Below the pieces are notes generated by a model. The model was given only the letters and a program-made list of their open reading frames with translations. It ran no database searches and was not told where the DNA came from. From positions 1 through 36,704 of IMG/VR virus record IMGVR_UViG_3300006736_000027: a stretch of 36,704 bases of DNA. One strand, 5' to 3'. Of the stretch, positions 1 through 36,302 are shown piece after piece (position 1 is the first letter of the stretch; each line of letters starts with the position of its first letter). The DNA comes from a virus. Position numbers and translations under genes: made by a program.

Positions 1-3000
1 TCTGTTACATCTTTTTCAGATAATTCGTGCTCAAATTCAAAGATGTACATCGCTATAGGATCTTGATCCTCAAAAGCTAAGAAATTAAACTGTGGCGGAA
101 TCACATAATTTCCCATCTTTATTAATTGTTCATAAACCGGACGGATTCGAGACGTCTTTGCTGGAACATCACCACTTTTTATGCGTCTTTTGGCGCCGGC
201 TACGCCTTCGGGATTTAACTTATAATAATACTCATCTTGCGCACGATCTGCACGGAAAGGTATCGCAACAACCGCTTCTTTTATGATCTTTTTCTCGCGG
301 GCTTGACCAAGCTTAAGGGCGCGCTTTGGCATCTTAATTAAATCTGCCAGAGAGCCGGTGAGAAGGCTATCATAACTACTGTCACGATTAACGTTTGCTA
401 AGATCCCATTGCTGTCGTCAACATCGCTGATAATGGGATCCCGAACTTCCAGATATATGCCAGTATCCGCGGCTGGTTTAAGACCGTATTGATGCCACAT
501 CCCTCGAATGACATCCCCCTCGCCGCCGTCGCCGTCAACGAAGGAGGCGGAGAGGAAGATCTTTGTAATAGTTGAACCAGCGAAACCCGTATTACCAGAA
601 TCGCCGTCGGAACTTTGTGTCAACTGACAAACACCCGATGTGCCGGCGGCGGTGGCAATGATCGTCCCATTATGGCCGGCGGAGGCGTTGACGCATGCAG
701 CGAGCGACGTTGCTAGGGCTGCGGCGGTGGAAGATTGATTAAATTCCCGGGCGGCAACGTCCTCAGCAGCTTTAGCGGTATAGGTCTTGGACGTGCCGGC
801 GTAATCTGTGATTACAATAGTCTCGTCGACTGATGGAAGACCTCCGGTGGCCTGCATTGTGGTTGTGGCGGCCGATCCGCTGATTAAGGCAGGAATTGTG
901 GCGTCTCGGTCTGCCTGGGCGAGCGAAGCAGAAGTGAAATCAAGCATTGGTGTCTCATATTTGGTTTGGAACACCAATACTTGTCCTGTTCCTTCCTCGA
1001 CTCGATCTGGTGCTGCAGAAATTGCATCAAAGCTGACTTTTGGAGCGGCAATTAGAGCCAATTTTGTTGTATCGTCAGATAAGTTAACAGAAGCACTAAT
1101 TTGCATCCAATCCCTGTAGGCGGTTACCGAGGACGCTGCACGAATATCGTCCCACGCAGAAGATGTCACAATATGATAGTAGTTCATCGTTGATGCTTGT
1201 AAGATCTGATCAAGAGAATAATTTTGTTCTTCGCCCACTGCATTTGGAGGCTCGAACGATAAACGCGCAACACAAGGAAAATCATAATGCGGAGGACTAA
1301 ACGGATATGCAAATCCAGTATCCCCATAGCCTTGTGCGGCTGGTCCAAAAAATGTGCCTCCGCCGGGTGCCTGGACACTGTCTTTGTTATACATCATGTT
1401 GCTTGGCGCGACGGTGTTGAGATCCCCGCCCGGGCCCTGGCGCATGACGATATCCATTATGTATTTTTTTCCCGGATCGGCTGTAAACCCAATTGGTCCG
1501 TCGGGGGCAGATGCAAACGCAGTAAGTTGTCCATCTTTTAAAAAGAAGTCAATCGACTCTGCCAAGAAGTTATGCATAGCCATTTTGTACCGATCGTCGC
1601 CGGAACCATCCCACGAAGCAGTAGAGTTAAGGATTGTTTTGGTGCTATTTACCTCGTTATCTATAGTGTTCTTCCCGAACATATGCTCCGGTTCCACGAG
1701 AGCTTCAAAGGGTAGCCTAAAACTGGCCTGTGAGCTAATGTTATAGTTCGGACCAACCTCGATGCCTGCGGAACTTCCGGAGTTCCCGCCTTGGAGCGAA
1801 CTCCATATAGGGTAATCAACCGCTACGCCAGCCTTAATTGTGTTGTGCATAATTCCAGGAGTGAAGAAGGGTTGCAAATATGTTCTGAAGCTTCCCTGAT
1901 TGTTGTTGGAGCCGTAAAGTGTACCGGAAAACTCCACATTCGCCCCATATGATTGACTGAATATGCTTGCAAGCTTTAAGGTTCGCTGAGCCGGGTAGAA
2001 ACCGTCGTATGGCAAGAACTTCATTATCGCATCACACTCTAGAGTAAGGGATGCGGGAGAAGCAATTTCTCGGGTAGAGCTTTGGATTGGACGGAAGTGG
2101 CTCAAGAAATCTGTCGTTGAATAAACCTTAAAGAAGTTTTTCATAGAACTAGAGGCTGCACTGCCGGGGGGTGTGGACTCATTTAGAACGGCTCCAGTGA
2201 GACTAAGAAAGCCTGAAAAGGTGCCGTCCGAAGGAGGAGAGGCTTGGAAATTTTTATTCTGTTCTAAAACAAAGTAGTCCATGTAGTCGCTAATTCTAAA
2301 CTCTGGTATAATCGTATAGTCCTTTCCATGACGCTTTATATCATCGACATATGCTTCATAAGAAGGGTAATAAAAGGGGTCTTTTCCAGCTTGACTCGCT
2401 GCTTGCCATGGCACCGAATAGATGTTGTCAGTGCCTACTCTGGTGTAGAGCGCCGAGGCAGTCATGAACCCCGGGCCGTTGAGCCATGCGTCGCCATAGT
2501 GGTTTATTGTGTATCGGTTTAAGAGTTCACCGGGGGCGTCAGGATCACTACTTTGAGGCGCGACGTTGCCGCCCACCGGGCCGGCGGAGGGGTTCAACAT
2601 GCCGTCGAGGGGCCACATACTCTGACTATAAATCGTTTTAAGATTAGTGGGCGCTGAATGTGAACCCATTGAGTTAGATACGTTTGTTTCGGTTCTATCG
2701 GCACGAATCGGGTTCCAGAATTCTACAATGAACTTCTCTCTCTGCCTCACCTTCTTTAGAAAAGTGTTTTGCTCACGAGGAAAAATTGTTTCACGATATG
2801 TTATTCGGCTTATTTGTTGATCTGATGGCAACCCAAAAGCAGTGCGCTCATAGCCATCTAAACTTGATATCTTTTCAGTTAATTTCGTATGTATCTGTTC
2901 TTTTCTAATCTTCTCAACGTTAATTCCCAGATCACCAATTATTGTAGTACCTTTTGTATTATCGTTATGAGCGGTGAAAGTCACCAAGTTGTTTCCATAT

Positions 3001-6000
3001 GTATCTGCCATCATAACGTGACTAGGAACAGCAATATCTCCAAACTCATGGATAAGAGGGCTGTGTTTAGATGTTACAACGGACTCTGTCAAATAAGCCA
3101 CGTATGTCGAGCGGGCTGGTGCAGTGTTATTCCGAGGTCCATGACTTCGCTGCGCCTGCCTAAACTCTAGGGCGCTCGGGTGCTTCATGCGAGTAGGATC
3201 GTTTAGGTTAACGTAGTTAGAACCAAAATCTGCCACCGTCTCCCTGACACGAGGAAGGCACGACATGATATTGGTCTTTCTTTGGTTTCGAATAATGGGG
3301 CTGCTTTGCCCAGTTCTGATCTGCTTCCAGGAAGGATACTGGTAAGGTCCGTTGCGGTGCAAGAGAAGCGAGTTAAGGATACTAGCAGTCGAGTCAGTGC
3401 CAAGAATATGCGTGATGAGCCCACCTGAGACAGGGCGGAGGGTCGAGTCGAGATCTTCGCCACCAGTGTTTAGATTTGACCTCAGTGTCGAGTTGCCGCC
3501 GCCGATGAAAGAAGCGGAGAGGAAAACATTTGTGATAGTTGAACCACCAAAAGTTGTGTTGCCGCGTGGGCCCGGGACGCTTTGTGTTAGTTGGCAAACG
3601 CCGACCGTGCCGCCTCCGGTGGCGGAGATTGTGCCGTCGTGGCCAGCGGGACTGTTGATACATGCAGCCAACGAGATTGCAAGAGCCTCCGCGTTGTAGT
3701 CGCCATGAAATTTGTTGGCAGTGAGATCTTCATCTGCTGCACTGGTATAGGTTTTAGTTGTGCCGGCGGTGTCTGTGATTACGATAGTTAAGCCGTCGAC
3801 TGGGAGTCCTCCGGTGGCTTCCATGGTGGTTGTGGCTTGAAGGAGTAGATCGTATCCAAGAATATTAGCCGAACTAGTTATGGGCTCATGTATATTAGAG
3901 TTGATGCCTGCGAAATCGGTGGGAAGATACGAATCTGCAGCGCTTCCACTTTGTGCGTTCCCCCAATATCTTATTACGGTCTTGGCGCCGTGGCCGAGCC
4001 ATGCGTTACGTGTTGTATAAGAACCATAATCTGAATGCTGAACGAACTTTAAATCTGTGGAAGCAGTGGCATGGTTGAGTTGATGCGCCATGTTAAGATT
4101 ACCAGAGAGAGGTGAGCGCTCAAGAGAAGCTGTAATCCATGCATATTGAGAATCTCTTTGTGGAATTGAGTGCTGCACAAAACCATTATCTTGCACAAAG
4201 CTAGCTGTATACCAGGAACCTGAGGCTGGTACCAACGCGCTGTTACCTGCATCCACGACGGGTCCTGTGCCTTCGCGGCCGTTGTGAGAAGCATCGTACA
4301 TAGTACTACCGTCGCCGGGAGTGTCGCCAAACCGCCACCACACGCTCAAGTGAGCATAAGACTGGTGCTGCAGCCAGTCTATAACGCCGCCATTAGAAGA
4401 GGAGTTTAGATCGTTATTTTTATATCCTTGAAGATCGTTAATTTCTGTTTCGTCTAAAGTCTTGTCCCAAATCCCCATTTCCGATATATACCCAGTATAA
4501 TCGTATGATTCTATTGGACGTCTAGTAGCTATGACGACCCCCTGGTCGGCGGCGCCGCCTGGGTACACCCTGGCGCTTGGTTGGTAATATGTTGTTCCGG
4601 GTCCTGAACCCGCCGTAACGTCCACCATGGGAGAACCGTCCGCGTACATGATAATTCTAATCGCTTCTTGATTGGCTGGAGTGCCCGTAAAGGTGTCTGT
4701 TAACTCCTCATAAGTGAAGCCAACCAAGTGCCATTCTCCATCGTTCAGTTGCGGAGTAGCAGCTTGATCAACACCTTGAGGAGTTTCAATCGTGAGATAC
4801 CCGTTACGGGGCCCAAACTCAAGTACGACGGTAGAAGTATCCGAATCGTAAACGTAGAATAAGGGCTCGCGGGTACTTGTGCTGGTGGTGTTAATCCAGA
4901 AAAAGACAGAAAATGCCCCATTATTGGCAATTTCCAAAGGTCCAACTCTTGAGCCGTTGTCGGAGAACTTGAACCCCTTTGTGCCGGTCGGAACCGACGG
5001 GTTAAAGAAAGTCGATTGCGCCGTCATAATGCTTTCTTCAACAAATTTCTTAACAACTCGTGGGTTTCTATTTGTCTTGTGATAAGACCCAGTTAGGAGA
5101 CTGAAGTCGTCCATGTAACGTTCGCTAGCGTCAAAAAAGGAAGACGACACCGTGCCTGATTTAATCCCGTATTGACCAGAAGGCTCTCTTAGTAACGAGT
5201 TCAGTGGTTGTCTTACGCTTAAGTTTCTCCATGGAAGCGCGTTATATGGAGAGTATTCCTCAGAAGTGTAGTCTCTTGTTCCTCTCGCCATTACCTCGCC
5301 AGAGCCGGGGGCGCTGAATCTTTCAGTTATGACGGTTTTGTTTGTCGCCCTCTCCGGTAAAGAGTAATCGATAACGCCAGTTACGTATGATGATTCGCTG
5401 TTAGAGATTGACAAGCGCTCAATGAATAGATTGTTGGCTTTCCTGCCGCTTGTTTGAACAACTTGGTAGTTCTTTTCGAAGTTGCCGATCTTGGTTAGTC
5501 CAGAGCTTGTAACCTGTTGAATATTAGCGATGTTAACGGGCCGCTTGGCGTATGTTTCTCTTGTTCTATTAGCAAATGGAAGGAACTTGTAGTTTGAGTC
5601 TAAACTTAAAGCTACTGGGGGAGGTGTCTGTGCCCGGGTAGGGTGTTTAGAGCCGGCGCCGGTGTTGACCAGCGTATGAGAATTGCCTGATGAATCCGCT
5701 GTCAAATCGCCGCCGAGGGCGCCAAAGCGCCACCAAGCCTCAAGGTCACTGAAAGTGGTGATAATGGTGGCGTCCCACGCGCCGGCGGGGGTACCACCAT
5801 AGCGGTTAAAGAAGTCCGGGGGACCCGTATAAAGCTGCAAAACCTCTGGTGATGTAAGCCCATCATTAAAGACGGTCATTTCTCCCATATAACCCTTGAA
5901 CCCTGCATCATAATGTCCGGAAGATGTGTCATATGTAAATCCAATAAACGGAATATCGGTTGCATCAATTGATATTCCCGTGGCGCCGGCGGATCCATCG

Positions 6001-9000
6001 ACAAAAGAACCGTCAATGAACAACTGTGCGACATCGCTCCCAGTAAAATACTCTACAACTATGTGATGCCATTTACCATCGTTTATTCCTACAGAGTGTT
6101 GAACCGTGGCAGTGGAAAGGTTTGGTCCTGCAGTCACCAAACCAGAAGAGTTGATGTATAAGAAGAACACATCGGCGAGGGCCGCACTGATCACGGAGAA
6201 GAGGACGCCTCCGGCAGAGTCGGCAGAAAAATCAGTATCTGTTTTTATCCAAACGCCAATTGTGAAATCACCAGTTATCTGGATGACACTTGCATTCGGA
6301 GCGTTATAACCGACGGCTCCGGTCTCATCGCCGGGGGTGTAGGAATGAAAAAGTGCCGAATAGTCGACTGAACCCGTGCGAGCCATGGCTGGTCCTGCCA
6401 CTGTTATGGAGTCGGATGCTCCTCCTACCTCGTCATCCAGTATTATCCTATAACCTTCAGGTCTAGTGTATAAATTGTCTAAGTAATCTCTACTATCATC
6501 GTTCCTATAGTTCACGTCTACATGGCGGTATTGATAGCCTCCGACGTACTTCTCGGTGAAGGGCCCTTGCATGGGGATCTCAAGATTAGAGCCGTATGAA
6601 TCCTCATGAAGATTGGTGACATCCAGCCCCTCAAAGCCATCAACATCCTGAATCTCGACGATATAACCACTGGCAGTCATCGAAGAGGAGTAGAAACTTA
6701 AGGGTGTGTTTTCTTTACGTACGTCTGTTGGGCGCCCAATAGAGTCGTGACCAGTGTAACTTTCGTAGAATACCTTCTTTTTTGATGCTGGATTTCCATC
6801 CTGATCTTGATAGGTAGGTTTGAGGAGATCCATGCAATCTACAAATTGCTCCAATTCGGACCCTGAAATATATACGTAATCATCGTACAAATCCATGTCG
6901 GCTTCGTTTTCGATGTTAGAGAAGCCGCTGAGGATCGATTTCTCTTTGTGATTGTTGGACAAGCTATTTTGTCCGCTCTTAATATCGTTTCTCTCAACAG
7001 CGCTGAATTGGACTGGTGCATTCTTCTGTCTATCAAAGGTCTGATAGAGGGCGGTGTGGAGACTCGTCCTGTCGGCGTTTACAGACGCCACGCTCGAACT
7101 AATGAGAGAGTTGACTGGTTCGGCCCTGTTTTTCCACCAGAAACAGTTTGTGTTTACCGAGGGACTGCTGCCAGTGGGTCCCCCACGGAGATACACAACC
7201 GTATCAGGAGACGCGGCGACCTGTATAGCAGTTGCGTTTTGTGGAGCAGTCGATGGATATGAGGCATTGGAATAGTTAGCTGAGTCGGCGAGAATGGTTG
7301 CACTCTCGGCAGAATCGCCCATTCTGTACCACGCCGCTAGTCTGGTCGAGTCTGTTCGGAGGTCCCAAGGTTTGCCATCATTATATAGCTCTGCGACAAG
7401 CGGCGTACCGCCGACGCCGGGGGCTTGGGTCCAGATAGAAAATTCATCCATGTCGCCGGCGAATTCGCTTTGGACCGCGTGTGATGTTGCCCAGGCGCCT
7501 ATATAAATATCACCATCGGCGGCAAGATCTATCTCAATGTCGGCACTAGAGAGAGTAAGAGCCTGACCATCACCATACAGAGCTAACAAGTCTCGGGCGC
7601 CGGATCCGTCGGCACCGGAGCCCTCCCCATATTGATATACGACAATAAGGTTGTGCCAGTTTCCGTCGTGCGAATTCGGGAAAGTGGCAGTTCGGATGAC
7701 GCCTGCGCCGAAGAGATCAAAGAACTGAATGAGTCCATCGTCGCCGGAGGGGTTGACGTAGTTGATCATTATCTCGGGATCATGCGCTCCGCCATCGGCG
7801 GTGGAGAAAAATGGTCCTAACCCATTCCGTATCCATACAGAAAGAGTCCAGCCGGAGGACGCGACGGGGGGCGCCATGCCCAACTGACCCAAGGGATTGC
7901 TAGAGCCGCTGTTGATGGCGTAAACACAGTTGGAGAACCGGGCATAATAATCGTTAATGAATTCGCCCTCAACGACCGGAGCGTGTCCATATTTCCAAGG
8001 GTAGGGGGATGCGCCGCCGACGGCTGGTGAAACCACTGAACCAGCGATGATTGTCGGTAGTTTGCTCTCCACCATGGGGAACTTGTTCCAATACTTATTG
8101 CGCTCTAGAACGTGGCTATTCACCATGGTCCGGATGCCGTCCGAGAACTGTGCTGATGCGGGCACTAATTGGGCAAGCATTGATGATAATGCACTGTCAA
8201 ACCACTTATAGTATTCTAAATACTTTTCAAAATCTATGGTTTCATTTTGTACTCTCTCAAAATAAAACTGCCTCATTTTATCTAGCTCTTTATAGGACTG
8301 CCTATATCGATTTACAGAGTCTCCGATTAAGCTGTTGAAGTCTTTAACCGTTGCAAAGAATTCTAGCATCTGACGTGTTACCACATCGTACATGCTCTTT
8401 TCAATCGAGAAGTAATAATTTATTGGTCTTGAGTTCTTCTCAAAGTATACATCATCATTTGACATAACCTTGATCATGTCTTCACTATCAAGGTCCTCCA
8501 GCGATCTTTGTTTTTGAGCGTAAATGTAATTACCATAAACAACACTGGTGCTGCCGCTCAAAAACCCGTATCCAATCCCTGGGTGCTGCAGGTGCAGTAT
8601 TGGGCCCAACCAGCCAGAGCCAGCGGAGGCGAACAGCGAGCCGGAAGAATTATCTATAGCATCAAACTGTCCTTCTGCGGAGGCGCTAGTAATTAGGGCA
8701 AAATCCCAATCTAAAATCCTGGTTTCGATGCGTGGAATGTAGTTTTGGATTGCATTGACGCCAACGCTTCCCGTAAGAAATGCCTGTCGGTACGGATGCA
8801 TACGCCCGAAGGTGGTGGGGTCTTTCGCGTGAGCTAGGACTTCATCATTGTCTAAGACATCCAACCAAGCTCTAACTGAAGAGATTCTAGCATCACTACG
8901 TTGCAGTGTTGAGCCTGTGAAGTCCGTCCTGTGGGCGCCGGCATAAACTCTCTTCGACGAAGATAAAAATGTTTGTCCCTGCGAAGGTGTCAATGACGTG

Positions 9001-12000
9001 GTCAAATAGAACTCGTGTTGAATTACATTATATTCCGTGCTGACCCCGTAAAACTCAACCTTATAATTGTTCAAACAACTTTCAGTTACCATACATGCTG
9101 CAGGGTATGAGTCAGGGGCGACCTTAACAGCAAAGTTCCAACGCTTATCTTTGTATGCCTCGGGGAAGCCGGCGGAGGTCAACTCGGAAATCCAACCCTC
9201 GGTGGAAGGATCAGGGTTTGAACTTGTTAAGACAAATTTTACCTCATTTAAGGAAACATCCCCCTGTGTGTACTCTTTTACTGCGTAAACTTGGAAGTTG
9301 GCAGGATCATATGGTGACCACTGTGTCTCCGCTTGATCCTCATTGGGAGTGTGCATTCCGAACAAGGAGGCGCTAGCAAAAGGATCCCCTATATAAGGGG
9401 GTCCAGAAGAGGCATCATATAAATTAGGAAGCACCACTTCCGCCTCAAAGGTCATCCCGAAGCCATTAGACAAATTTGTAGAAGAGCCAATGTATGGAAC
9501 ACTATTTACGTCTCCACTAGCAGTGTGCTGATAACATGTCGCAGAAAAATTATCTGCGGTGTGGAAATTTATATAGTTTTTTCTGAAGGTTTTATTTTTA
9601 AGGTTATCCTGTAGTTCCGTCTCGATATTGTTGCCATACATCTTTAAATCAACAACATCTTCATCCACGCCAAAACAGTGTATTAAATTTCTAAAAGAAT
9701 CATGAGTACCTTTTGACTTGTAAATGTTTATTAAGTTGTTGTAAATGTTTTCGTATATGCGGTTCTTAACATTGCCAATGTCTTCGGTAAAAAGCTCGGT
9801 TTCTGAGCGACTCCCAAGAGCCTCTAGAATGTCAGCGTCAACAAAAAGCTCTGGCGCTATGAACCCTGCTGATTCCAACATCTCCTGAGCAAAGGGATAG
9901 GGCTTGTTGGAGGCAGAGGTATAGGTGTCATTGTCTCCAAAAGTTGGCAGTGCATCGATCTGCAAGTAAACAGTGTCCAGATAACTGGACATTATCTGAG
10001 TTAGATTTTTTAGGGTCCCGTCGTCGTCTTCTTCTTGAATCCATGATGGAACCGAGCTATAAAGGCTTGAAACATTGTTGTAGTCATATAACGTTCCCGA
10101 AAGTTTGAGGTTGTTAGCAAGAGTGCTGACATCGGGATGTGAACGATAGAGGATGGGATCTTTAAACTCAAATGCTGAGGCGCTGGCTTCTACAATGGCT
10201 GATCCAGTGGAGCGGGCCCCGGAGGCATAGCCTACAAAAGCACCATTCGTGATACGCCCTGAATAGTCTAGAACCTTCTTGTCGGTCGCAGTATTCGTGG
10301 TGATCCCTTCGTTGAATTTGTAGTATACGCCCAATTTGTTAGAAGCATCATCGGTGTTAACACCGCCCTCGACCTGATCAAGCCAATTCAACCCAATTTG
10401 TCTGCCTGTTCTCTTTGTTTTCCAATATCTGAACTCGTCTACTGAGCCAGAGAGCTTATACCAACCGCGGGATCCCGTAGGAACGGTGGGGAGTGTGTCC
10501 GCAACAGAAATTCTGGCGGGATCGCCGAGTGTTACTGCATCATTAGTTTTGGCAGAATCAACCAGGGTGGTACCAAAGCTAGCTGAATCTCCGCAGCGAT
10601 ACCAGGCTTGTAGATCAAGTCCGCCCGATAAATTTGTGGGGGCACCGCTGTTGTACATCCCCACAACTTCACCGGCGGGCAATTCTCTCGACCACACGGA
10701 CATTTCATCTAGAGATCCGCTCCAGTCTTGCGACCATGAACCGGAAATATAATCGGCGCCGATGGCTACATAATAATCATCTTTTAGGGTCAAAAGCCCA
10801 GGATAAGCGGTGGTGACACCTACTCCGTCGACATATAGTTTAGCACCGTTGCCTGAATTCGCAGATCCGGTGGTGAATGCCACGTGGTGCCATTCATCGT
10901 CCTCAATTGAGATAGAAGAGTCATACCAATGAGTGGTCACGGTGCCGGCAGCGTACACCCAAGCGAGGGTACCCACGTCGGACATCATTACTCGCCAGGG
11001 CGCGCGGGTGCCAGCAGCGGCACCACCAGTGACCGCCTCGCCGGCTGAGAAGATTGTTGTGCCCCGGGCGTTGGAGTCCGCCTTGACCCAAGTAGAAAAA
11101 GAAAACCCATCCCAGGAGTTATACCAGGCTGGGGAAGTGCCAGGTCCTCCAATTCCCAGATCTTCGGCTGGGGTGAGTGATGCACTGTTGATCACGAAGT
11201 AGTCGCCGGTACCATCTAGATAAGCTCCAAACGAGTTACTCATCATTGTAACCGACTGCTCTAGGGCTCCGATTGTAGCCCGCAAGCCACCTGTAACCTC
11301 GTTAATTGCACCACCAATTGAGGTCTTGGCTTTTTTGAACCGGCCGTTTTCATAAGTCTCTACGACTAAATCAGACCCACTATTTTGCAGCGCAAAAGCA
11401 TAGTGATTCCAGGATCCGGTAGTCGCGAGAGAAAACCCATCGTTAATAGAGTACGCAGTTATGGTTTTGTTAACACTCCCTGATTGGATGTTAATTTGAA
11501 AGCCGTTTGCATCATCACTATCATCGGCGCTATTGTTAAGGTAGACCCACAGGCGGCCGAAGGGGGCGTCGTCGCTTCCTGAAGTTTGATTATTGTTGAG
11601 ATCCAATAAGGTTTGACGCGTCGTCGTGGTGGTGCGGTCGATGTCGCCAAACTTTACCCAAGATTCGACAGTAACCCCCGAGCCACTTAGATCAAACTTG
11701 AGATTGGACTCTCGAAGGCTTCCTGTGTCCCAAACGTTGGAGCCGCTAAATGTATCTACAAGAGGCTTACCAGCCATTCCGGCGGAGGCTGTGTTAGGTC
11801 CACCATAGAACACAATGTATTCTTTCGTAGAGGGGTTTCCTAGCGCGTCAATTGCATACTCGGCGGAAGCGAATGTCACGTAGCCGTTCGTGCGCGGGTA
11901 TTCGTTATCAAATATGTGGAGGTCTAGATAAGATGAGCTGTTGTGCCATTTGAGCTTTTCAACACTTGATCCATCATAGGGGTAAAATTCAATAATCCTA

Positions 12001-12224
12001 GTGATAGCATCGTTATAGTATCTTTCAGCTGATCCGAACTTTACAAAATTGGAAGCGGAAGAAAAATCTACATGAGGAATAAACCGATCATTTTCGATTG
12101 TGCGAGCATCGACATACTTATCAGTCTTGCTGTTCGTTTCATCAGCAATCTCAGCTACACTCTTGTTTCCCAGATTGGTCAAATCGCCCTGAGTTTTGAA
12201 CAGGTTTTTCAGGTTATCGCTCAT
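1..12224 (-). CDS. Giant virion protein with five LamG/ConA-like domains (partial, C-terminus off the left edge)
   Basis: An open frame of 4,074 codons starts at ATG 12224 (MSDNLKNLFKTQG), overlapping the previous stop by four bases (ATGA), and is still open at base 1. Five LamG/concanavalin-like folds are visible at about residues 145-327, 338-528, 1426-1615, 1953-2131 and 2411-2608. Each has a core strand of the DGxWHH type (TGSWNHYAF, DDEWHHVAF, DGNWHNLIV, DGKWHHIVV, DGEWHLVGF) and is followed by a W(W/Y)RxGD-like strand and a D-S/A-x-N turn. Between them lie blocks I associate with large environmental-phage structural proteins: YKSKGTHDSFRNLIHCFG near residue 840, PMQGPFTEKYVGG near 1885 and VITERFSAPG near 2300. 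A module of about 115 residues occurs twice (2795-2911 and 3784-3901). No signal peptide is seen. Position after the gp25/gp6-like genes suggests a baseplate-attached fibre or tail-surface adhesin that binds glycans; the LamG folds are clear, the role is inferred. Confidence 0.88.
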   Translation of the reverse strand, partial: MSDNLKNLFKTQGDLTNLGNKSVAEIADETNSKTDKYVDARTIENDRFIPHVDFSSASNFVKFGSAERYYNDAITRIIEFYPYDGSSVEKLKWHNSSSYLDLHIFDNEYPRTNGYVTFASAEYAIDALGNPSTKEYIVFYGGPNTASAGMAGKPLVDTFSGSNVWDTGSLRESNLKFDLSGSGVTVESWVKFGDIDRTTTTTRQTLLDLNNNQTSGSDDAPFGRLWVYLNNSADDSDDANGFQINIQSGSVNKTITAYSINDGFSLATTGSWNHYAFALQNSGSDLVVETYENGRFKKAKTSIGGAINEVTGGLRATIGALEQSVTMMSNSFGAYLDGTGDYFVINSASLTPAEDLGIGGPGTSPAWYNSWDGFSFSTWVKADSNARGTTIFSAGEAVTGGAAAGTRAPWRVMMSDVGTLAWVYAAGTVTTHWYDSSISIEDDEWHHVAFTTGSANSGNGAKLYVDGVGVTTAYPGLLTLKDDYYVAIGADYISGSWSQDWSGSLDEMSVWSRELPAGEVVGMYNSGAPTNLSGGLDLQAWYRCGDSASFGTTLVDSAKTNDAVTLGDPARISVADTLPTVPTGSRGWYKLSGSVDEFRYWKTKRTGRQIGLNWLDQVEGGVNTDDASNKLGVYYKFNEGITTNTATDKKVLDYSGRITNGAFVGYASGARSTGSAIVEASASAFEFKDPILYRSHPDVSTLANNLKLSGTLYDYNNVSSLYSSVPSWIQEEDDDGTLKNLTQIMSSYLDTVYLQIDALPTFGDNDTYTSASNKPYPFAQEMLESAGFIAPELFVDADILEALGSRSETELFTEDIGNVKNRIYENIYNNLINIYKSKGTHDSFRNLIHCFGVDEDVVDLKMYGNNIETELQDNLKNKTFRKNYINFHTADNFSATCYQHTASGDVNSVPYIGSSTNLSNGFGMTFEAEVVLPNLYDASSGPPYIGDPFASASLFGMHTPNEDQAETQWSPYDPANFQVYAVKEYTQGDVSLNEVKFVLTSSNPDPSTEGWISELTSAGFPEAYKDKRWNFAVKVAPDSYPAACMVTESCLNNYKVEFYGVSTEYNVIQHEFYLTTSLTPSQGQTFLSSSKRVYAGAHRTDFTGSTLQRSDARISSVRAWLDVLDNDEVLAHAKDPTTFGRMHPYRQAFLTGSVGVNAIQNYIPRIETRILDWDFALITSASAEGQFDAIDNSSGSLFASAGSGWLGPILHLQHPGIGYGFLSGSTSVVYGNYIYAQKQRSLEDLDSEDMIKVMSNDDVYFEKNSRPINYYFSIEKSMYDVVTRQMLEFFATVKDFNSLIGDSVNRYRQSYKELDKMRQFYFERVQNETIDFEKYLEYYKWFDSALSSMLAQLVPASAQFSDGIRTMVNSHVLERNKYWNKFPMVESKLPTIIAGSVVSPAVGGASPYPWKYGHAPVVEGEFINDYYARFSNCVYAINSGSSNPLGQLGMAPPVASSGWTLSVWIRNGLGPFFSTADGGAHDPEIMINYVNPSGDDGLIQFFDLFGAGVIRTATFPNSHDGNWHNLIVVYQYGEGSGADGSGARDLLALYGDGQALTLSSADIEIDLAADGDIYIGAWATSHAVQSEFAGDMDEFSIWTQAPGVGGTPLVAELYNDGKPWDLRTDSTRLAAWYRMGDSAESATILADSANYSNASYPSTAPQNATAIQVAASPDTVVYLRGGPTGSSPSVNTNCFWWKNRAEPVNSLISSSVASVNADRTSLHTALYQTFDRQKNAPVQFSAVERNDIKSGQNSLSNNHKEKSILSGFSNIENEADMDLYDDYVYISGSELEQFVDCMDLLKPTYQDQDGNPASKKKVFYESYTGHDSIGRPTDVRKENTPLSFYSSSMTASGYIVEIQDVDGFEGLDVTNLHEDSYGSNLEIPMQGPFTEKYVGGYQYRHVDVNYRNDDSRDYLDNLYTRPEGYRIILDDEVGGASDSITVAGPAMARTGSVDYSALFHSYTPGDETGAVGYNAPNASVIQITGDFTIGVWIKTDTDFSADSAGGVLFSVISAALADVFFLYINSSGLVTAGPNLSTATVQHSVGINDGKWHHIVVEYFTGSDVAQLFIDGSFVDGSAGATGISIDATDIPFIGFTYDTSSGHYDAGFKGYMGEMTVFNDGLTSPEVLQLYTGPPDFFNRYGGTPAGAWDATIITTFSDLEAWWRFGALGGDLTADSSGNSHTLVNTGAGSKHPTRAQTPPPVALSLDSNYKFLPFANRTRETYAKRPVNIANIQQVTSSGLTKIGNFEKNYQVVQTSGRKANNLFIERLSISNSESSYVTGVIDYSLPERATNKTVITERFSAPGSGEVMARGTRDYTSEEYSPYNALPWRNLSVRQPLNSLLREPSGQYGIKSGTVSSSFFDASERYMDDFSLLTGSYHKTNRNPRVVKKFVEESIMTAQSTFFNPSVPTGTKGFKFSDNGSRVGPLEIANNGAFSVFFWINTTSTSTREPLFYVYDSDTSTVVLEFGPRNGYLTIETPQGVDQAATPQLNDGEWHLVGFTYEELTDTFTGTPANQEAIRIIMYADGSPMVDVTAGSGPGTTYYQPSARVYPGGAADQGVVIATRRPIESYDYTGYISEMGIWDKTLDETEINDLQGYKNNDLNSSSNGGVIDWLQHQSYAHLSVWWRFGDTPGDGSTMYDASHNGREGTGPVVDAGNSALVPASGSWYTASFVQDNGFVQHSIPQRDSQYAWITASLERSPLSGNLNMAHQLNHATASTDLKFVQHSDYGSYTTRNAWLGHGAKTVIRYWGNAQSGSAADSYLPTDFAGINSNIHEPITSSANILGYDLLLQATTTMEATGGLPVDGLTIVITDTAGTTKTYTSAADEDLTANKFHGDYNAEALAISLAACINSPAGHDGTISATGGGTVGVCQLTQSVPGPRGNTTFGGSTITNVFLSASFIGGGNSTLRSNLNTGGEDLDSTLRPVSGGLITHILGTDSTASILNSLLLHRNGPYQYPSWKQIRTGQSSPIIRNQRKTNIMSCLPRVRETVADFGSNYVNLNDPTRMKHPSALEFRQAQRSHGPRNNTAPARSTYVAYLTESVVTSKHSPLIHEFGDIAVPSHVMMADTYGNNLVTFTAHNDNTKGTTIIGDLGINVEKIRKEQIHTKLTEKISSLDGYERTAFGLPSDQQISRITYRETIFPREQNTFLKKVRQREKFIVEFWNPIRADRTETNVSNSMGSHSAPTNLKTIYSQSMWPLDGMLNPSAGPVGGNVAPQSSDPDAPGELLNRYTINHYGDAWLNGPGFMTASALYTRVGTDNIYSVPWQAASQAGKDPFYYPSYEAYVDDIKRHGKDYTIIPEFRISDYMDYFVLEQNKNFQASPPSDGTFSGFLSLTGAVLNESTPPGSAASSSMKNFFKVYSTTDFLSHFRPIQSSTREIASPASLTLECDAIMKFLPYDGFYPAQRTLKLASIFSQSYGANVEFSGTLYGSNNNQGSFRTYLQPFFTPGIMHNTIKAGVAVDYPIWSSLQGGNSGSSAGIEVGPNYNISSQASFRLPFEALVEPEHMFGKNTIDNEVNSTKTILNSTASWDGSGDDRYKMAMHNFLAESIDFFLKDGQLTAFASAPDGPIGFTADPGKKYIMDIVMRQGPGGDLNTVAPSNMMYNKDSVQAPGGGTFFGPAAQGYGDTGFAYPFSPPHYDFPCVARLSFEPPNAVGEEQNYSLDQILQASTMNYYHIVTSSAWDDIRAASSVTAYRDWMQISASVNLSDDTTKLALIAAPKVSFDAISAAPDRVEEGTGQVLVFQTKYETPMLDFTSASLAQADRDATIPALISGSAATTTMQATGGLPSVDETIVITDYAGTSKTYTAKAAEDVAAREFNQSSTAAALATSLAACVNASAGHNGTIIATAAGTSGVCQLTQSSDGDSGNTGFAGSTITKIFLSASFVDGDGGEGDVIRGMWHQYGLKPAADTGIYLEVRDPIISDVDDSNGILANVNRDSSYDSLLTGSLADLIKMPKRALKLGQAREKKIIKEAVVAIPFRADRAQDEYYYKLNPEGVAGAKRRIKSGDVPAKTSRIRPVYEQLIKMGNYVIPPQFNFLAFEDQDPIAMYIFEFEHELSEKDVT
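523..872 (-). repeat. Duplicated module, C-terminal copy (inside the giant protein)
   Basis: The second copy reads MQATGGLPSVDETIVITDYAGTSKTYT, LATSLAACVNASAGHNGTI, GVCQLTQS, GNTGFAGSTITKIFLSASF. It is separated from the first copy by about 870 residues of unrelated sequence, so the duplication is dispersed, not tandem. Nucleotide similarity persists across both copies, which suggests a fairly recent duplication or continuing recombination. Confidence 0.75.
3493..3840 (-). repeat. Duplicated module, N-terminal copy (inside the giant protein)
   Basis: This copy reads MEATGGLPVDG-TIVITDTAGTTKTYT, then LAISLAACINSPAGHDGTI, GVCQLTQS, GNTTFGGSTITNVFLSASF and a Gly-rich end. It aligns almost without gaps to the copy at 523-872, and the DNA is also visibly similar. 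The pattern of an AACIN helix, GHxGTIxA and LTQ followed by GNT and an S-A-S-F strand looks like a small beta-rich domain found repeatedly in phage fibre proteins. Function is not known to me. Confidence 0.75.
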
Positions 12225-13714
12225 TTCTCGACTCTAAATTTGAATTGCTTTTCACCCTCAGTATATTTGCTATTCAGGTAATATAAGAACCGTAAAGTAT
12301 ATGAATAACCGGGTTCGAGCATATGCACGTCCAAATCAAAGTAACTTCCTGTTGAATCCAACGATAGTTTTGTTTGGTTATCACTTCCTGTCCCATAATC
12401 GAAAACAGGATATTCATCGTAAGTCCGATAGAGACTATAGAACACAGATTCTACTGGATAGTTTTGAGCTTGTGCGACGACTTTCGAATAAACATTTGGA
12501 TTCCAATTCTTGTTTCTGGTGTAGAGGCGGAACCTAGTAGTCTTTTCGTCTAAGTGATAAACTGCTTTCAAGTTGGTGATGTTTTCGACGATCTTAACAT
12601 TAGGGTTATAGTTTGATGAATCAAATTTCTTAGGTGTAACGCTTCCAGTATGATATTGTGTTCCAGCGTCATCGTGCCAGACATCATAAAGGCGTGTTAG
12701 AGGCGTTGCGGCGGCGGTGACGGCGTAAGATGCTGAATATATACCCGTAGTGACATAGCCACCAGTTACGTTGAGATCGTTGTCAGCGGCAACGTCGCCG
12801 CCGGCTGCTAACTCTAATTTCGAACCAGATGGCACTGTGTTGTCGTCTGATCCCGAATAGAGACTCACATAAATGGCACCAGTATCTGCGCCGGGAATAT
12901 CCGCTAAGTGTCCACGTATTACATTATAAATGTAAACTGTATTAATGTTATCGGCTGCAGGAGCAACAGAACTGCTATAGTAGAAGTTTCCTCTGTCGTC
13001 AATCTTGGAGGAATCCCATCGTGCCTCTATTACTGGCCTCTTGAGAAAATACTGTGACGATCGTGCAAAAAATTTCTTAGTGTATTGAGTGACACCGCTT
13101 GTTTCTAGGCTGGACGTGAGGCGGATGACTAGTCCGTAGTTGTCAATACCACTATCGCCAGAACCCTTAATCCAGTCTTCAACCAAAGGAGTGATATCGA
13201 GTTCAATATCTTCCACACCGGACTCCATTGCAACATCAAAGACATTCTCGTTCTTGTTTTGATCCAAGAAATCGCCGCCGGCGGTCGTCCAAGTACTCCC
13301 TGAACCGGCATTGATCCAGTTCGAACCAGTTTGATCGTAAGTAAGATCACTATAGTTCTCCATGTCTAATCCATAACCCTCTTCCCACGCCTTCGAAACA
13401 GGCATTACAGAGTAGGTCGTGTCACGTGGAATGGTAGAACCGTGGGGGGCGTTGTATACACGAAGGTAGAACGAAACGCTGCCGCTAGCTGGGACATCTC
13501 CGTTGGTTCGATCGGTAGAAATGGTGCTAACAGGAAAATTAATGATGGCTCTCGAAAGTTCCTGGGATGTTGACGATTCCTGTCCGTAAATGTGGAACAC
13601 TTCTAGGATATCCGCTCGTCCCATATTTGAACCGGTACCTCTTGTTGAAAGATTCAGCTCAAATGCATTTGTAACAGTATTATCTGCGTCTGCTGTATAG
13701 CGCTTGATGGCCAC
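12221..13714 (-). CDS. Virion structural protein with DNRLRE-like domain, 497 aa
   Basis: The N-terminal half (about residues 45-240) follows the DNRLRE/CBM96-like beta-sandwich pattern: LSRAIINFPVSTI, a strand FYLRVYNAP, then VMPVSKAWEEG, a WTTAGGDF turn, LDITPLVEDWI, NYGLVIRL and a late FFARSSQYFLKRPVIEARW. The C-terminal part contains TTRFRLYTRNKNWNPNVYSK and DLDVHMLEPGYSYTLRFLYY, which I do not assign to a named family. Translation starts at GTG, overlapping the TAG stop of the gp6-like gene by one base, and its stop overlaps the ATG of the giant LamG protein. Lying between a wedge protein and the giant adhesin, it could be a fibre-attachment or baseplate peripheral protein. Structural role is likely; exact position in the particle is inference. 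Confidence 0.8.
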   Translation of the reverse strand: MAIKRYTADADNTVTNAFELNLSTRGTGSNMGRADILEVFHIYGQESSTSQELSRAIINFPVSTISTDRTNGDVPASGSVSFYLRVYNAPHGSTIPRDTTYSVMPVSKAWEEGYGLDMENYSDLTYDQTGSNWINAGSGSTWTTAGGDFLDQNKNENVFDVAMESGVEDIELDITPLVEDWIKGSGDSGIDNYGLVIRLTSSLETSGVTQYTKKFFARSSQYFLKRPVIEARWDSSKIDDRGNFYYSSSVAPAADNINTVYIYNVIRGHLADIPGADTGAIYVSLYSGSDDNTVPSGSKLELAAGGDVAADNDLNVTGGYVTTGIYSASYAVTAAATPLTRLYDVWHDDAGTQYHTGSVTPKKFDSSNYNPNVKIVENITNLKAVYHLDEKTTRFRLYTRNKNWNPNVYSKVVAQAQNYPVESVFYSLYRTYDEYPVFDYGTGSDNQTKLSLDSTGSYFDLDVHMLEPGYSYTLRFLYYLNSKYTEGEKQFKFRVEK

Positions 13715-15510
13715 TACCTTAATACTCCATTAATGTCGCTCTTGGGATACTTGATCTCCCAAATTGTGTCCGGAGGGAACTGCACAACACGACCGGTAGG
13801 GTCAGTATAACTGTCAACGGATACTGCAACAGGAGCATAGTTTAGTCCGCTTTTTTGATAAACATTCACCGAAACGGTATCAACGACGCCGGCTACATCA
13901 TTAAGGACGTTGTATATGTCGGATATAAAAAATGCTTGTGCAATATTTGGTTTTACTTCAAAGTACTCCTCAAGTGCTCGCTGCGTATTGTTCATGACTT
14001 CAAATCGATTAGCGGAATAATCTATAATGGCGTTGAAGTTAATTCCCAAATTTATAATCACAGGATCTAGGATATCAACGGTATCATTGATCATCTTAAC
14101 ACTAGTTAACCATGTTTTTAAATTTCTCTTTAGAGTATCGTTAGCTAAAGTAAGCTTTCCGTTGGAGTTCTCCGAAAGAACATACATATTCAAGTTTCTT
14201 TTCAAAGAATCTTTATCTTGCAATATGTTGCATCTTTTGATAGCGCCAAACTGTGCGGGCATTCTATATGCCATCGCAATATAATCTTGTTTCGTGACCG
14301 CTCTTGCTTGTGTGGCAAAGTTGGCGGCCGCACGTAGCTTTAGTTCCTCAGCCGATGGATAACTAATGCTACCCACAATAGGCTCCTCATTGGTGACCTC
14401 TAACGAGTTAATGACTTCATCAATCGTACTTGGGGTCAAGGATCCTATATCAGCAAAACGAAGTCTCGGACCAGTGACAGCGGTAAGAGCGTCAGTTGCA
14501 GTATTCATATCTGCTTCAGAATTAGCGCGATATTTAATTGTTAAAGTCGTGTTTGATGGTCCTACCCCGAGCTTGTCTGTTTCCAAAAGGTTGCTGGGAT
14601 CCAAAGTTCTTGTCGAGAAGTAGTCGCGACCATACACCTGCAACACCACATTGCTAGGATCCGTTACCGCTCTGGTGGTTAGTTGAGAGTCTGACCCGAA
14701 ACCAAATAATAGGTGCACGCCGGCGGTGTCTTTCTCGACCACGAAGCGGCGTGGTACCGATATTGCAGACATCACAGAACCAACTGTGCCTTTATCCTGG
14801 TTCCTGTTCTTGATCGCCTTATAGATCACGTCTTGTGTTAAATAATCTACTTCATAATACTCGTTGCCATCTTCATCCATAACAGAGATAATTTCAGTAA
14901 TATTTTGTCCAGATAATGGGACTCTTAAAAACTTTTGGAAGGCGCCAACAGTAATAGTAGATGTCTTCAGTGTGCCGGAAATTACTCGCCCGCGGGCTTT
15001 AACAGCGAATGAAGTTGGCACACCTGTTGCGGGATCCTGTCGAGCTACCACAACATCACCAACGGAGGCTTCAGCAAGATCCACATTTTCATTCAGAATA
15101 AATCCACGGCCGGACGTCGTTGCCAACGCTGTGCCTCGCTCTAAGACGGGCATGTATTTTGGATCAGGTTCGTTAGAAATAGCGAGAGCAGGAACTACAA
15201 CGTAAAAAGTTGCAATTCCCGTCGCGGTCGGACTTAAGTCAAGTCGGAACCCCAGTTGCTTAACAAGTTTTAATACGTTGTTATATTCAATGGCAGTTGA
15301 TAAAAATGATTCGTTAGCTTGATAGTCGATGTAAAAAGAGAGCATATCTCCAACGTAAGCAACAGTATCCAACATGAGAGCACCAAAGCTGGCCTCATTG
15401 AAGTCTTGGAATGAGTCCGGATAATACCTTTTTGCGTAATCGACTAATTCATCTTTGATTGAATTAAAATCTCTACTTGTATAATTGACAACTGTTTTCT
15501 TTTTCGGCAT
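13714..15510 (-). CDS. Baseplate wedge protein, T4 gp6-like, 598 aa
   Basis: The first 100 residues carry the hallmark of the gp6/baseplate-J group: NYTSRDFNSIKDELVDYAKR, then YYPDSFQDFNEASFGALMLD, VAYVGDMLSFYIDYQANESFL and an NNVLKLVKQLGF helix. In T4, gp6 forms the ring that joins the baseplate wedges and drives the sheath-contraction switch. Later parts include ATQARAVTKQDYIAMAYRMP, typical of the core where J-like proteins have a conserved tyrosine, and a C-terminal domain ending in IWEIKYPKSDINGVLR. Length is close to the T4 protein (about 660). ATG 15510 has a GAGG-type ribosome site about ten bases upstream. It follows the gp25-like gene by 22 bases, the usual gp25-gp6 pairing in contractile-tail systems. 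Confidence 0.9.
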   Translation of the reverse strand: MPKKKTVVNYTSRDFNSIKDELVDYAKRYYPDSFQDFNEASFGALMLDTVAYVGDMLSFYIDYQANESFLSTAIEYNNVLKLVKQLGFRLDLSPTATGIATFYVVVPALAISNEPDPKYMPVLERGTALATTSGRGFILNENVDLAEASVGDVVVARQDPATGVPTSFAVKARGRVISGTLKTSTITVGAFQKFLRVPLSGQNITEIISVMDEDGNEYYEVDYLTQDVIYKAIKNRNQDKGTVGSVMSAISVPRRFVVEKDTAGVHLLFGFGSDSQLTTRAVTDPSNVVLQVYGRDYFSTRTLDPSNLLETDKLGVGPSNTTLTIKYRANSEADMNTATDALTAVTGPRLRFADIGSLTPSTIDEVINSLEVTNEEPIVGSISYPSAEELKLRAAANFATQARAVTKQDYIAMAYRMPAQFGAIKRCNILQDKDSLKRNLNMYVLSENSNGKLTLANDTLKRNLKTWLTSVKMINDTVDILDPVIINLGINFNAIIDYSANRFEVMNNTQRALEEYFEVKPNIAQAFFISDIYNVLNDVAGVVDTVSVNVYQKSGLNYAPVAVSVDSYTDPTGRVVQFPPDTIWEIKYPKSDINGVLR

Positions 15511-15532: not shown

Positions 15533-15928
15533 CTAAATAGCTGTAATTTCATTATTTCTTAGTGAAGCTTGTATACTTAAACGATCCGCAACACCGATAG
15601 AAGGCACCCGGTAACCAAGAGTAACATGCATTATCTGAGAATCTTCTACCAAGTTGGTGTTAATCTCTATTAAATCTACAAAAGACATGTATCGTGAAAC
15701 TTGTTCAGCTATGGCTGTCTGCACCTTTTCACTGGTATTATCACCAGGGCTACCGAACAGATAGTTCCGGATGCCGACGCCGAACTCAGGATCCATCATG
15801 CGTTCGCCGGGGGCTGTAAGGACTAGATTTCGTAAATTTTGTTTTATTAGCCCTGCATAAGTCTTAATTAACCCAAACCCGTCCTCGGGGTCTTTTTCAA
15901 GCGGCAATCTCGGAGCTAATCCAGGCAT
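15533..15928 (-). CDS. Baseplate wedge protein, T4 gp25-like, 131 aa
   Basis: This is a small gp25/GPW-type wedge protein and part of the sheath-initiation complex at the baseplate. The sequence has the family core: ...IKQNLRNLVLTAPGERMMDPEFGVGIRNYLFG at residues 30-65, with the E-R-M-M-D-P-x-F-G-V-G-I segment typical of the family, followed by a helix with VQTAIAEQVSRYM and strands LIEINTNLVE and HVTLGYRVP. T4 gp25 is 132 residues, essentially the same length. The gene begins after one of the two real gaps in the window (62 bases), which holds a candidate late promoter, so it may head a transcription unit with the gp6-like gene. Confidence 0.93.
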   Translation of the reverse strand: MPGLAPRLPLEKDPEDGFGLIKTYAGLIKQNLRNLVLTAPGERMMDPEFGVGIRNYLFGSPGDNTSEKVQTAIAEQVSRYMSFVDLIEINTNLVEDSQIMHVTLGYRVPSIGVADRLSIQASLRNNEITAI

Positions 15929-15990: not shown

Positions 15991-18900
15991 TTATTCGTTC
16001 TCTGAAGGGATTTCTTCTTGAATCTCGCCCAAGTCTAGTTCCTGTCCTTCAGAGTTTTCCAAGACCACATAATTTGGAATTTTCTCACACCGGGCGGTTT
16101 GAGCCAGTTGCCCCGTAGAACATCCAGTACCCAGGGCAGAGCCGCCATTTGGCTTTACATAATCAGGGAACTCTGGGAACGGTGGCAACGACAAACATCC
16201 CCAGTCTTTCTTTATACGCTGGGTAATATGATTGACTAGTTCATCTGGTACGTCTGATCCGCTGCGGGTCGGGAGGAACGGGCAAAGGATCAACTTTATC
16301 AATCCAAACGGATCAAAATGGGCGCCGAGGACGTTGACTCCGGCAGCTAATATGGCCAGGACAGCATCAATCAGCATCTTTGTCAGATCAATACCAAAGT
16401 CCTTATGGAGGGCATCCCACCAGTCCCTCGTGATAGCGTCGTAGGCGTCTGTAATGCTAGTGTCCGGACAACCTAAAGGATTATCATCAAGAAGGACATA
16501 AAACAGACTCTTCAATGCACTTTTAGCCGATTCAAAAGCAAGACTAGAATCCCGATAAGCGTTGGTGGACAGCGTGTTCAGGGTTATAAAGGCCATACTG
16601 TATAATCTGTTTACAGGTACAATATAATCATAAAGAAGCTTATATTCATTACTCATCTCAATTTTTCTTTGCAGTTCTGAAAATTTCTCATCCGCTCCCA
16701 AACCGGCTCTCCAGTCGTCCAATGCAACACCAAGCTCATACTCATCATCCAAGAGTATATATTCTTCCTCAATCATCGGTAATGTAGTAGTTGTAACTGC
16801 TGCGATCTGGTCCGCTCGGGAGGCACCCCACTCATAAGTTACGTAAGCCTTTTCGTTGTTGGACAGAGTCGAAATTGGGCCCGCAAGTTCCGGCTTTTCA
16901 AAAATCTTTCCGTAGGTGTTGGTCGCTTCAACAAGATTATCCAATTCTGCAACAAATTTTGGCGACGGCGGCAGATACACAAGCCTAACTCCTAGAGCAA
17001 GCTTTTGGAAGTAGGTAGAGGGTGGAACCCAAGAGCTTATCGTCGGAAGAACGGACTGTCTCCAATATCGATTCCATTGTTTGTAGTTTACAACCCCGTA
17101 CAGATCTGGCTGTTTAATGGCATCTATTACAGCATCTTGAGCTTCGCCCTGGATGCCTTGAACTGAATTTCTCAGCGTCTCCTGTGAAATTTCAGTTCTC
17201 TGTCTGTTGCGAATAGCAGTTTCGGTGGAAGCCTGCACGGCGCCGTTTACAACGGGACTATCAACGACGCGGATATATCTTTGAAAAAAGAACTGTCCAC
17301 GGTTGTTTCCATCGTTTGGGGGTCTCCAAAGACCTGCATCATCTAAACTCATCCAATTGGTGTATTTTGCCGAAGGAGATCCGACTATTTGCGACTGTGG
17401 ACTCTCATAGAGATCTCCAGACCCCCTGAAGAGGGAAGCGGCAGTGGTTTTAAGTGCCGGGTTAGCGAACACTTCCCATCCTTCAGGGATCGGTGACCCG
17501 TCCGCTGTTTTTTCTACGAGGTGTGACGCCATAATATAGTCAAATTCGGCTACCAGCGATGGAGCTTGTTCTTTGATCAGGAAAATCAGCTTATCATCTA
17601 TGGTAACCAAATCTATCGGTTGGCCGCCCAGAGGATCCACCTTTAAGGAAGTGTCTCCACGGTTCTTGCGATCTCTCATAACTTTTGACACCATCTGCAT
17701 GAAGTCACAATGGAACCCTTCGTCTCGTGAAAACTGCATGTTAATGCGCTGTGTGATATAAAGCGGGATGGCATTGGATCTAAACATATCCAGCATATCA
17801 AAGCGTGCAACTGTTGGATACATCTTTAGTATAAATTCAACACAATATATTCTCATGTAGAGATATATGATCCCAAGAATAGAGGCTTGCGATAATTGAG
17901 ACAGATTCTTTGCTTTTGCAGGATCCCCTACAGGATCGCAGACTGGGTTTTTTGCAAAATCGTCCTTCACCCTTTCCTTCGCTGCCGTCAATCCAAGCAA
18001 ATCCCCATGAGGTGCATCAGGTGGTAATTTAATCCACTTCTGTTTAGGAAGCCCCCAAGCATTCAAGCCTGGCTGCGGCTGGTGTATAAATCCACGAGAT
18101 CTCTCAAGACGTTCGAACTCTTTAGGGATAAATTCAATTGCTGTAAGGGATGCAGGATCGCCGAAGGTAGGTTGTGATGTAGCTTCATTAACAAGCCTCT
18201 CAATATAAGACGCGCAAAGATTGTGGTACTCAGTTTTGCGCGCTTCGTCGAAATGTTGGCTACGCCCGCCGGCAGAGGGATCCAAGCCTTTCGAGGCTGC
18301 TAAATTATCGATATATTCAAACAAAAGCTTGTATTTGCTTTCTTCGTTATTGACAGTAGACGGAACAGGCTCTTGTAAAGTATCGTGGTATTTTATATTG
18401 TATTCCTGAATATCCGTTAGTGATTCCTCTAGCTGACTAACTGTTGTTGATTTTTTATAATTTAATTCAAACCTATCTATATTCGGCGGGGCAGCGTGGC
18501 GTAAGTCAATGATTTCTACACTAGGTGTTACAGTAAAATTAAGTGCGAACTGGGGGCTACCGCTGCGTGTGAACACTGGTGGGATCGCGGGGGGGAGCTT
18601 GGTGTACTTCGTACCAAATAACGTGTCACTCGCTTTGGGGAGCAACATGACTGTGTCATAAGCACCTTGCACCACTGCCGGATCATCCTCCGCAACAGGC
18701 TTATAGGGTCCTCCATACCCACTAAATGCCGCAACTTTGTATTCTTCGGACATTTCATTTTTAGCGATATGGTCACCCGGGTATGCTAGCTGATACTCTT
18801 GCACGGGTATTCTAGTGATGATAGAGGAATTCTCGTCTCCTGTTTGGACGACGTGCGCTGGCGCAAACTCATCAAGATACGAAAAAACGTTCTGCAGAGG

Positions 18901-35656: not shown

Positions 35657-36280
35657 TCATTCGCTAACCACTGGTATTTTCTTAAAAATATCAAACTCTG
35701 TCAAATCGCGATAAGGAGGATCTTCTAACAAGTCATCCATATGTTCTGGATAGTTTTGCATAAGCATTAGTCCTCGACAAGCTTGTTCAGGGTTCATGTA
35801 CATATTCCATCCTTCTTCAACGATATTGTCCTCGTGGTAAGGCACGGTACCTCGACCTTCATATCTAGCCTTTTTGTACCAGTCTACAGCCTCCTTGCTA
35901 TCCGTCAAGATCATACCGCCCTTTCCAATTTTAAGATGCTTCTTAATATGAAAACTCAAGCACATGGTGCTCTGAGGGATATACATTTCTGACGTCAGCC
36001 TTTTGGCTGCGTCGTAAATCGGAAACGGTTTAAGTTGGTAGATACCCTTCCAGGCAACATCTTCGAACTGCAACTTGGCGCCGGCGTGCAAAATAGACTG
36101 CGGTGGCGAAAGGTATGTTCTTTTCGGAATTGTAACTTCCCTTCCCTTAACCTTATGGTACTTGCATGCCAAAAAAATAGCATTGGTGCAACTGTTTACA
36201 GAAACTGCATACGGGGCACCTGTATAGTGAGCGATCTCTTCCTCAAACATTTGAACTATCTTGTAAGGATTATGTAACAT
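35657..36280 (-). CDS. Short DegT/DnrJ/EryC1/StrS-type PLP aminotransferase, 207 aa
   Basis: The DegT layout can be followed: KIVQMFEEEIAHYTGAPYAV, VNSCTNAIFLACK (the Thr-containing PLP-phosphate loop), PIYDAAKRL (D90, PLP pyridine-nitrogen contact) and LSFHIKKHLKIGKGGMI, with K114 at the Schiff-base lysine position of SFHxTK. It then ends after YMNPEQACRGLMLMQ and a short tail, at about 207 residues against a usual 370, so the C-terminal domain that shapes the active site is missing or replaced. I prefer ATG 36280 because the family's N-terminal blocks begin right after it; ATG 36349 would add 23 residues overlapping the FkbM gene. It could aminate a keto sugar made by the RmlB-like enzyme, if active. 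Confidence 0.7.
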   Translation of the reverse strand: MLHNPYKIVQMFEEEIAHYTGAPYAVSVNSCTNAIFLACKYHKVKGREVTIPKRTYLSPPQSILHAGAKLQFEDVAWKGIYQLKPFPIYDAAKRLTSEMYIPQSTMCLSFHIKKHLKIGKGGMILTDSKEAVDWYKKARYEGRGTVPYHEDNIVEEGWNMYMNPEQACRGLMLMQNYPEHMDDLLEDPPYRDLTEFDIFKKIPVVSE

Positions 36281-36302
36281 ATTAGTCCGCAGTGTGGCCC
36301 GG

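Follow-up and report, generated by a model that had tools for sequence, protein, structure and literature searches.

What is a protein of this size, with five LamG domains, doing in a phage genome? The question was raised by the window analysed here, a stretch of 36,704 nt that is the entire virus record IMGVR_UViG_3300006736_000027. On its minus strand a frame begins with an ATG at position 12224 and stays open to base 3, giving 4,074 codons with zero internal stops and filling 33% of the window, in line with a sequence-only reading of this DNA that had described a single frame over at least a third of it. The sequence left of base 1 would hold the C-terminus of the giant protein, not its N-terminus. 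A complete homologue, G001 (3,609 aa), is collinear with the giant up to G001 residue 3442; because the alignment stops there, the giant appears to be short of about 167 C-terminal residues (~170). The five LamG domains of that reading were recovered by Pfam, in which Laminin_G_3 (PF13385) matched five stretches at 168 bits against a curated cut-off of 27.6 (E 1.5e-49). Domain positions were taken from an HMM built on the family's own LamG sequences, which found LamG1 in two pieces (residues 156-363 and 552-666) and LamG2 to LamG5 at the residues listed in Table 1.

Table 1. Features of the giant gene and its neighbours in the window; residue numbers refer to the giant protein.
Feature	Position	Strand	Evidence
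gp25/W-like baseplate wedge protein	15533..15928	-	PF04965, 1.2e-10
gp6/J-like baseplate wedge protein	13714..15510	-	phrog_219, 1.4e-19
497-aa protein between gp6-like gene and giant; orthologues across relatives	12221..13714	-	
Giant baseplate-wedge-like protein, 4,074 codons, C-terminus off window	3..12224	-	frame and G001 alignment
LamG1 first half, fixed scaffold domain (residues 112-330)	11235..11891	-	HMM and predicted model
LamG2 (355-568), optional, nested in LamG1; absent in G001	10521..11162	-	Pfam, HMM, G001 alignment
LamG1 second half, after nested insert (residues 580-683)	10176..10487	-	HMM and fold match
Conserved core of module A (residues 666-1417)	7974..10229	-	
gp7/gpI-like motif YKSKGT..SFRNLI (residues 831-865)	9630..9734	-	
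LamG3 (1425-1660), optional, site S1 after conserved WK..HAP junction; absent in G001	7245..7952	-	
LamG4 (1959-2197), optional, site S2; MAM domain there in G003	5634..6350	-	
LamG5 (2408-2657), optional, site S4	4254..5003	-	
Repeat-domain cassette a (residues 2794-2910), absent here in G001	3495..3845	-	
Module C (residues 2920-4074), separate gene in some relatives	3..3467	-	
Repeat-domain cassette b (residues 3783-3900), absent here in G001	525..878	-	84.5% DNA identity to G001 copy elsewhere

The gene neighbourhood points to a phage baseplate. The minus-strand order runs from a gp25/W-like gene through a gp6/J-like gene and a gene for a 497-aa protein to the giant, and the same gp25-gp6-(~500 aa)-giant order is found in relatives. 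A T4-type late sigma factor is encoded further upstream of the gp25-like gene (phrog_234, 1.7e-4). The 497-aa protein had no clear match in Pfam or PHROG. A second giant frame, of 2,421 aa (15991-23256), likewise matched no Pfam or PHROG family; its counterparts in relatives, of similar size, sit just before gp25. Cyanophage ACG-2014f shows a gp25-gp6-gp7 order in which gp7, at 4,225 aa, resembles the giant in position and size and is followed by gp8, and other cyanophage gp7 or equivalent genes (for example in P-SSM2 and P-HM2) span 5.7-21 kb and likewise encode proteins of several thousand residues. Giants at this position are therefore known in marine T4-like phages. The earlier label of "adhesin-like" thus fits less well than "baseplate-wedge-like", because the giant adjoins gp25 and gp6 homologues and parallels the giant cyanophage gp7. 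Nor did traits of a bacterial surface adhesin appear: by eye, the N-terminus (MSDNLKNLFKTQGDL) is not signal-like, and the gene lies in a phage baseplate cluster of a virus record.

Relatives of the giant were reached in steps: a single-sequence scan of viral contigs returned nothing, and the gp6-like protein, followed by an alignment of the core, revealed the family. Scanning with the core alignment identified at least 574 confirmed related stretches in IMG/VR, of which 80 were kept, and 6 in bacterial genome assemblies; full-length members range from 1,240 to 4,325 aa. Uncultured marine virus proteins in BFVD (A0A1B1IUQ9, A0A0F7L9Z0 and others) belong to the same family over most of module A, the N-terminal third (E 1e-67 to 1e-76), and are uncharacterised entries that carry no function in that listing. 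A cultured-phage search with giant residues 1-1341 found no relatives. The gp6-like protein also matched Flavobacterium phage immuto, Microcystis phage Mel-JY01 and a 484-kb uncultured phage, in each of which gp6 is followed by another protein and then by a large protein of 1,265-1,400 aa. Immuto gp161 (1,265 aa) and the proteins of Mel-JY01 (1,336 aa) and the huge phage LR756508 (1,400 aa), annotated as hypothetical or not at all, are recognisably homologous to module A and are encoded downstream of gp25 and gp6. They are about the size of that module, with modules B and C unfused.

These three modules, A, B and C, make up a scaffold of ~2,700 alignment columns. Module A combines a fixed LamG-fold domain with a gp7/gpI-like helical motif, and some relatives encode modules B and C in genes of their own. 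The first protein is shorter in G003, L032/L035, L055, L063, L083, L086, L090 and L103, and shorter or split in L005; in G003, L032/L035, L063, L083, L086 and L090 the next gene has matches to later portions of the giant, with a variable break point. Judged from these sequences, the giant consists of separable parts fused together, and the differing splits among relatives point to fission or fusion of a single baseplate protein having happened repeatedly. Module C matched nothing in the PDB by sequence or fold, which is not proof of a new fold. The giant of one relative, L047, holds a Hint/intein-like domain at residues ~3300-3480 (L047:15808-16350; PF07591, 9.6e-8; PF14890, 4.3e-7), perhaps an intein, perhaps a virion-protein domain with autoproteolytic activity.

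Is the giant, then, a gp7? A core profile matched cyanophage gp7 at E 3e-4, improving to 5e-5 with immuto and other cultured intermediates, over a short SKGT..SF..L motif, and cyanophage gp7 in turn matched T4 gp7 by profile comparison (E 5e-8) with the same SKGT motif. Foldseek against BFVD returned part of a gp7 annotated in the ACG-2014f species. T4 gp7 (1,032 aa) and P2 gpI share the gene order relative to gp6/J and gp25/W and a short KGT motif with the giant, but are far smaller and without LamG; direct profile comparison of the core with these two proteins was not significant. Cyanophage gp7 has little sequence similarity to the giant beyond the SKGT motif, and ACG-2014f gp7 contains no LamG by Pfam or the family LamG HMM, whereas the giant has five. 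The core matched no PDB sequence, PHROG searches with the giant, the core and distant homologues gave essentially nothing, and PDB structure-search lists for the predicted model of residues 1-1200 were filled by LamG domain matches, masking the helical core. On this evidence we infer, with moderate confidence, that the giant is a gp7-like baseplate wedge protein standing in gp7's place and orthologous to it. That it is instead an unrelated tail protein, such as a tail-fibre anchor, which merely follows gp6 seems unlikely to us. Such a protein would account for the non-significant comparison with T4 gp7, for the extra ~500-aa gene that parts the giant from gp6 here but is lacking between gp6 and gp7 in T4 and ACG-2014f, and for a downstream gene, of ~330 aa in relatives, in which similarity to gp8 of T4 or of cyanophages could not be detected. 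It would not account for a position conserved both in this group and in cyanophages or for an SKGT motif in common with cyanophage gp7, and no other gp7 candidate adjoins gp6 in the window.

Comparison of LamG number and position between related phages, which the sequence-only reading had proposed as a check, separated one domain from the other four. LamG1 occurs in all 90 relatives examined (77 non-redundant), near residues 130-470 or split by a nested insert, and the sampled LamG1 copies form a single clade with support of 100 in the LamG tree; the remaining four domains are optional and lie at recurring sites. The idea of LamG domains inserted into a phage-structural scaffold therefore held for four of the five, while LamG1 is a fixed domain of the scaffold that itself holds an insert. 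In a predicted model of residues 1-1200, LamG1 adopts a pentraxin/LNS beta-sandwich, with PAPP-A and pentraxins as top matches (Z 18-20) and pentraxins and LNS domains at Z 14-20 across the match list; glucanases and alginate lyases are also among the fold matches. LamG2 lies nested within LamG1, because the structural match of LamG1 covers residues 112-683, spanning the insert, and because LamG1 is uninterrupted in G001, which lacks LamG2 and LamG3 and has LamG4 and LamG5 in common with the window. Structure prediction thus recovered the expected beta-sandwich for LamG1 (Z ~20), while LamG2 was modelled with low confidence (pLDDT about 25-50), so its fold is assigned from HMMs only; for LamG3 to LamG5 the beta-sandwich is predicted from profile matches. 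The family LamG HMM also matched L032/L035 and L023 in the region equivalent to giant residues ~920-1140, where the giant may hold a sixth, divergent ConA-like domain.

To place the optional copies, we excised them, aligned 77 members with MAFFT and mapped the inserts onto the ~2,700 scaffold columns, whose numbering is approximate in variable stretches. The 55 optional LamG copies fell at recurring sites: columns 274-321, inside LamG1 (seven members, so that the nested LamG is present in six contigs besides the window), 1144 (seven members), 1348-1389 (six), 1454-1468 (sixteen), 1576 (five) and 1661-1666 (nine); a few more lie at other positions. Other domains also serve as inserts. G003 carries a MAM domain at the same or a neighbouring site (PF00629, 1.1e-8), and L036 a reelin-like domain (PF21471, 2.5e-4, under the curated cut-off). 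A short repeat domain, with the pattern ATTTMQATGGLP...GNT.F..S.I...FLSASF, represents a second cassette type; it occurs in the window (twice), G001 and L087, had no Pfam or PHROG family match, and similar-looking repeat domains were seen by eye in L036, L089, L091 and L061/L071.

Pairs of close relatives captured gain, loss and replacement of these cassettes. L053 and L070 are 90% identical, and a whole LamG lies between the conserved motifs FHAP and NIYWHRYMEE in L070 where L053 has a few residues; L036 and L048 (98-99% protein identity) differ by the reelin-like insert of ~180 residues. At one site, L067 and L068 carry LamG domains only 28% identical between flanks that are 89% and 78% identical, and the L067 domain is 81% identical to the copy in L088, yet module A of L088 is only 60% identical. 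Repeat domain b of the window is 84.5% identical at the DNA level to a G001 copy at a different scaffold site, against 64-77% for the adjoining scaffold. In trees with many long branches, the optional LamG copies required 25 site-label changes against a minimum of 7, and with LamG1 included 26 against a shuffled mean of 39.8; the copies therefore cluster by site yet also move between sites. The core (scaffold) tree shows 40 changes between presence and absence of LamG across six sites. The simplest mechanism of cassette exchange would be homologous recombination in the conserved flanks.

How might such a protein work? We favour, as somewhat the more probable account, a gp7-like wedge of T4-related, mostly uncultured phages with recombining beta-rich cassettes at recurring sites, for which we propose binding to host-envelope polymers. 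The scaffold would accept extra LamG, repeat-domain, MAM or reelin-like cassettes at these sites, and recombination in the conserved flanks would gain, lose and swap them between phages. Hanging off the baseplate, the cassettes would attach to glycans or other polymers in the envelope of the host, and swapped cassettes would alter the surface on which the phage can dock. The optional LamG copies are patchy, fast-diverging and swapped within conserved flanks, which argues for selection on what the cassettes contact; a glycan is suggested as ligand because LamG, MAM and related folds generally serve adhesion. Surface exposure, glycan binding and an effect on host range are proposed for the cassettes, and it is plausible that one protein binds several surface sugars, as the sequence-only reading had suggested. 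We put forward more tentatively a fuller version in which about seven acceptor sites, one of them within a LamG, hold combinatorial sets of LamG, MAM, reelin-like and repeat cassettes, recombined across lineages and sites, that would set host or surface specificity.

A purely structural role is conceivable for the fixed LamG1 and also for the optional copies. Were the optional LamG and other beta domains structural decorations, such as spacers or glue to tail proteins or fibres, rather than ligand-binding parts, a LamG1 that is fixed and conserved in all members would be natural, as would an insert that sits inside LamG1 without replacing it. We consider this improbable: a structural part is expected to be kept, whereas the optional copies are patchy, diverge fast and are swapped against flanks 80-90% identical, and unrelated domains common in adhesion proteins (MAM, reelin-like) take their place at the same site. 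Slightly less probable still, in our view, is that the cassettes bind environmental polymers, such as algal or mucus-like polysaccharide or particles, so that the virion lingers near hosts while host specificity is not set. The LamG fold is common in polysaccharide-binding and -degrading proteins, consistent with the glucanases and alginate lyases among the fold matches, the proteins matched in BFVD come from marine viruses, and the host of one distant relative in culture is a Baltic Flavobacterium; against this, the baseplate is a less obvious location for such a role than the capsid. The sequence-only reading had named a frameshift or assembly error as what would undo it, and a metagenomic fragment lacking several of its LamG domains in the closest relative might suggest one, but we reject a chimeric LamG array as extremely improbable given the intact frame, the collinearity and common LamG4 and LamG5 of G001, the nested LamG of six other contigs and the identical insertion sites in independent contigs.

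If the cassettes contact glycans, as we propose, recognition and modification of sugars might be linked, as that reading had supposed. An upstream cluster in the window does encode an NDP-sugar dehydratase/epimerase, sulfotransferases, a nucleotidyltransferase, methyltransferases and a DegT-type aminotransferase. The supposed link was not seen: among 22 non-redundant relatives on longer contigs, DegT was present in 4 of 9 with optional LamG and in 8 of 13 without, a comparison of fragmentary records with low power. The DegT-type frame of the window (35657-36349) encodes 230 aa against a 360-position Pfam profile, and DegT-like frames of ~200 aa occur in G002, G012, G019, G022, G024, G025, G026 and G030, most beside a full-length DegT, so the 230-aa frame is perhaps a viral version of reduced length, not a disrupted gene.

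Neither giant gp7 proteins nor LamG domains in proteins of phages are new, and these marine sequences already stand in databases as uncharacterised entries. Literature searches found no description of a fixed LamG alongside optional cassettes at recurring sites or of LamG-in-LamG nesting, and nothing on point about LamG in phage baseplates; a search of one Far-T4 paper for baseplate and LamG terms found none. A parallel is offered by the optional Ig-like domains of phage virion proteins, which are beta-sandwich accessories with a patchy occurrence on structural proteins. Here, by contrast, the additions are LamG, MAM and a repeat domain, placed in frame at recurring internal sites, with one LamG inside another, and this nesting identifies the loop of the fold that can take up an entire further domain. 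Tail fibres and spikes are where receptor recognition is normally looked for, whereas here a scaffold protein, common to a very abundant group of uncultured phages (at least 574 related stretches), carries optional, exchanged lectin-like domains. Should the cassettes bind glycans of the host, a single gene would be enough to read how host range evolves in uncultured phages, by setting cassette content against host.
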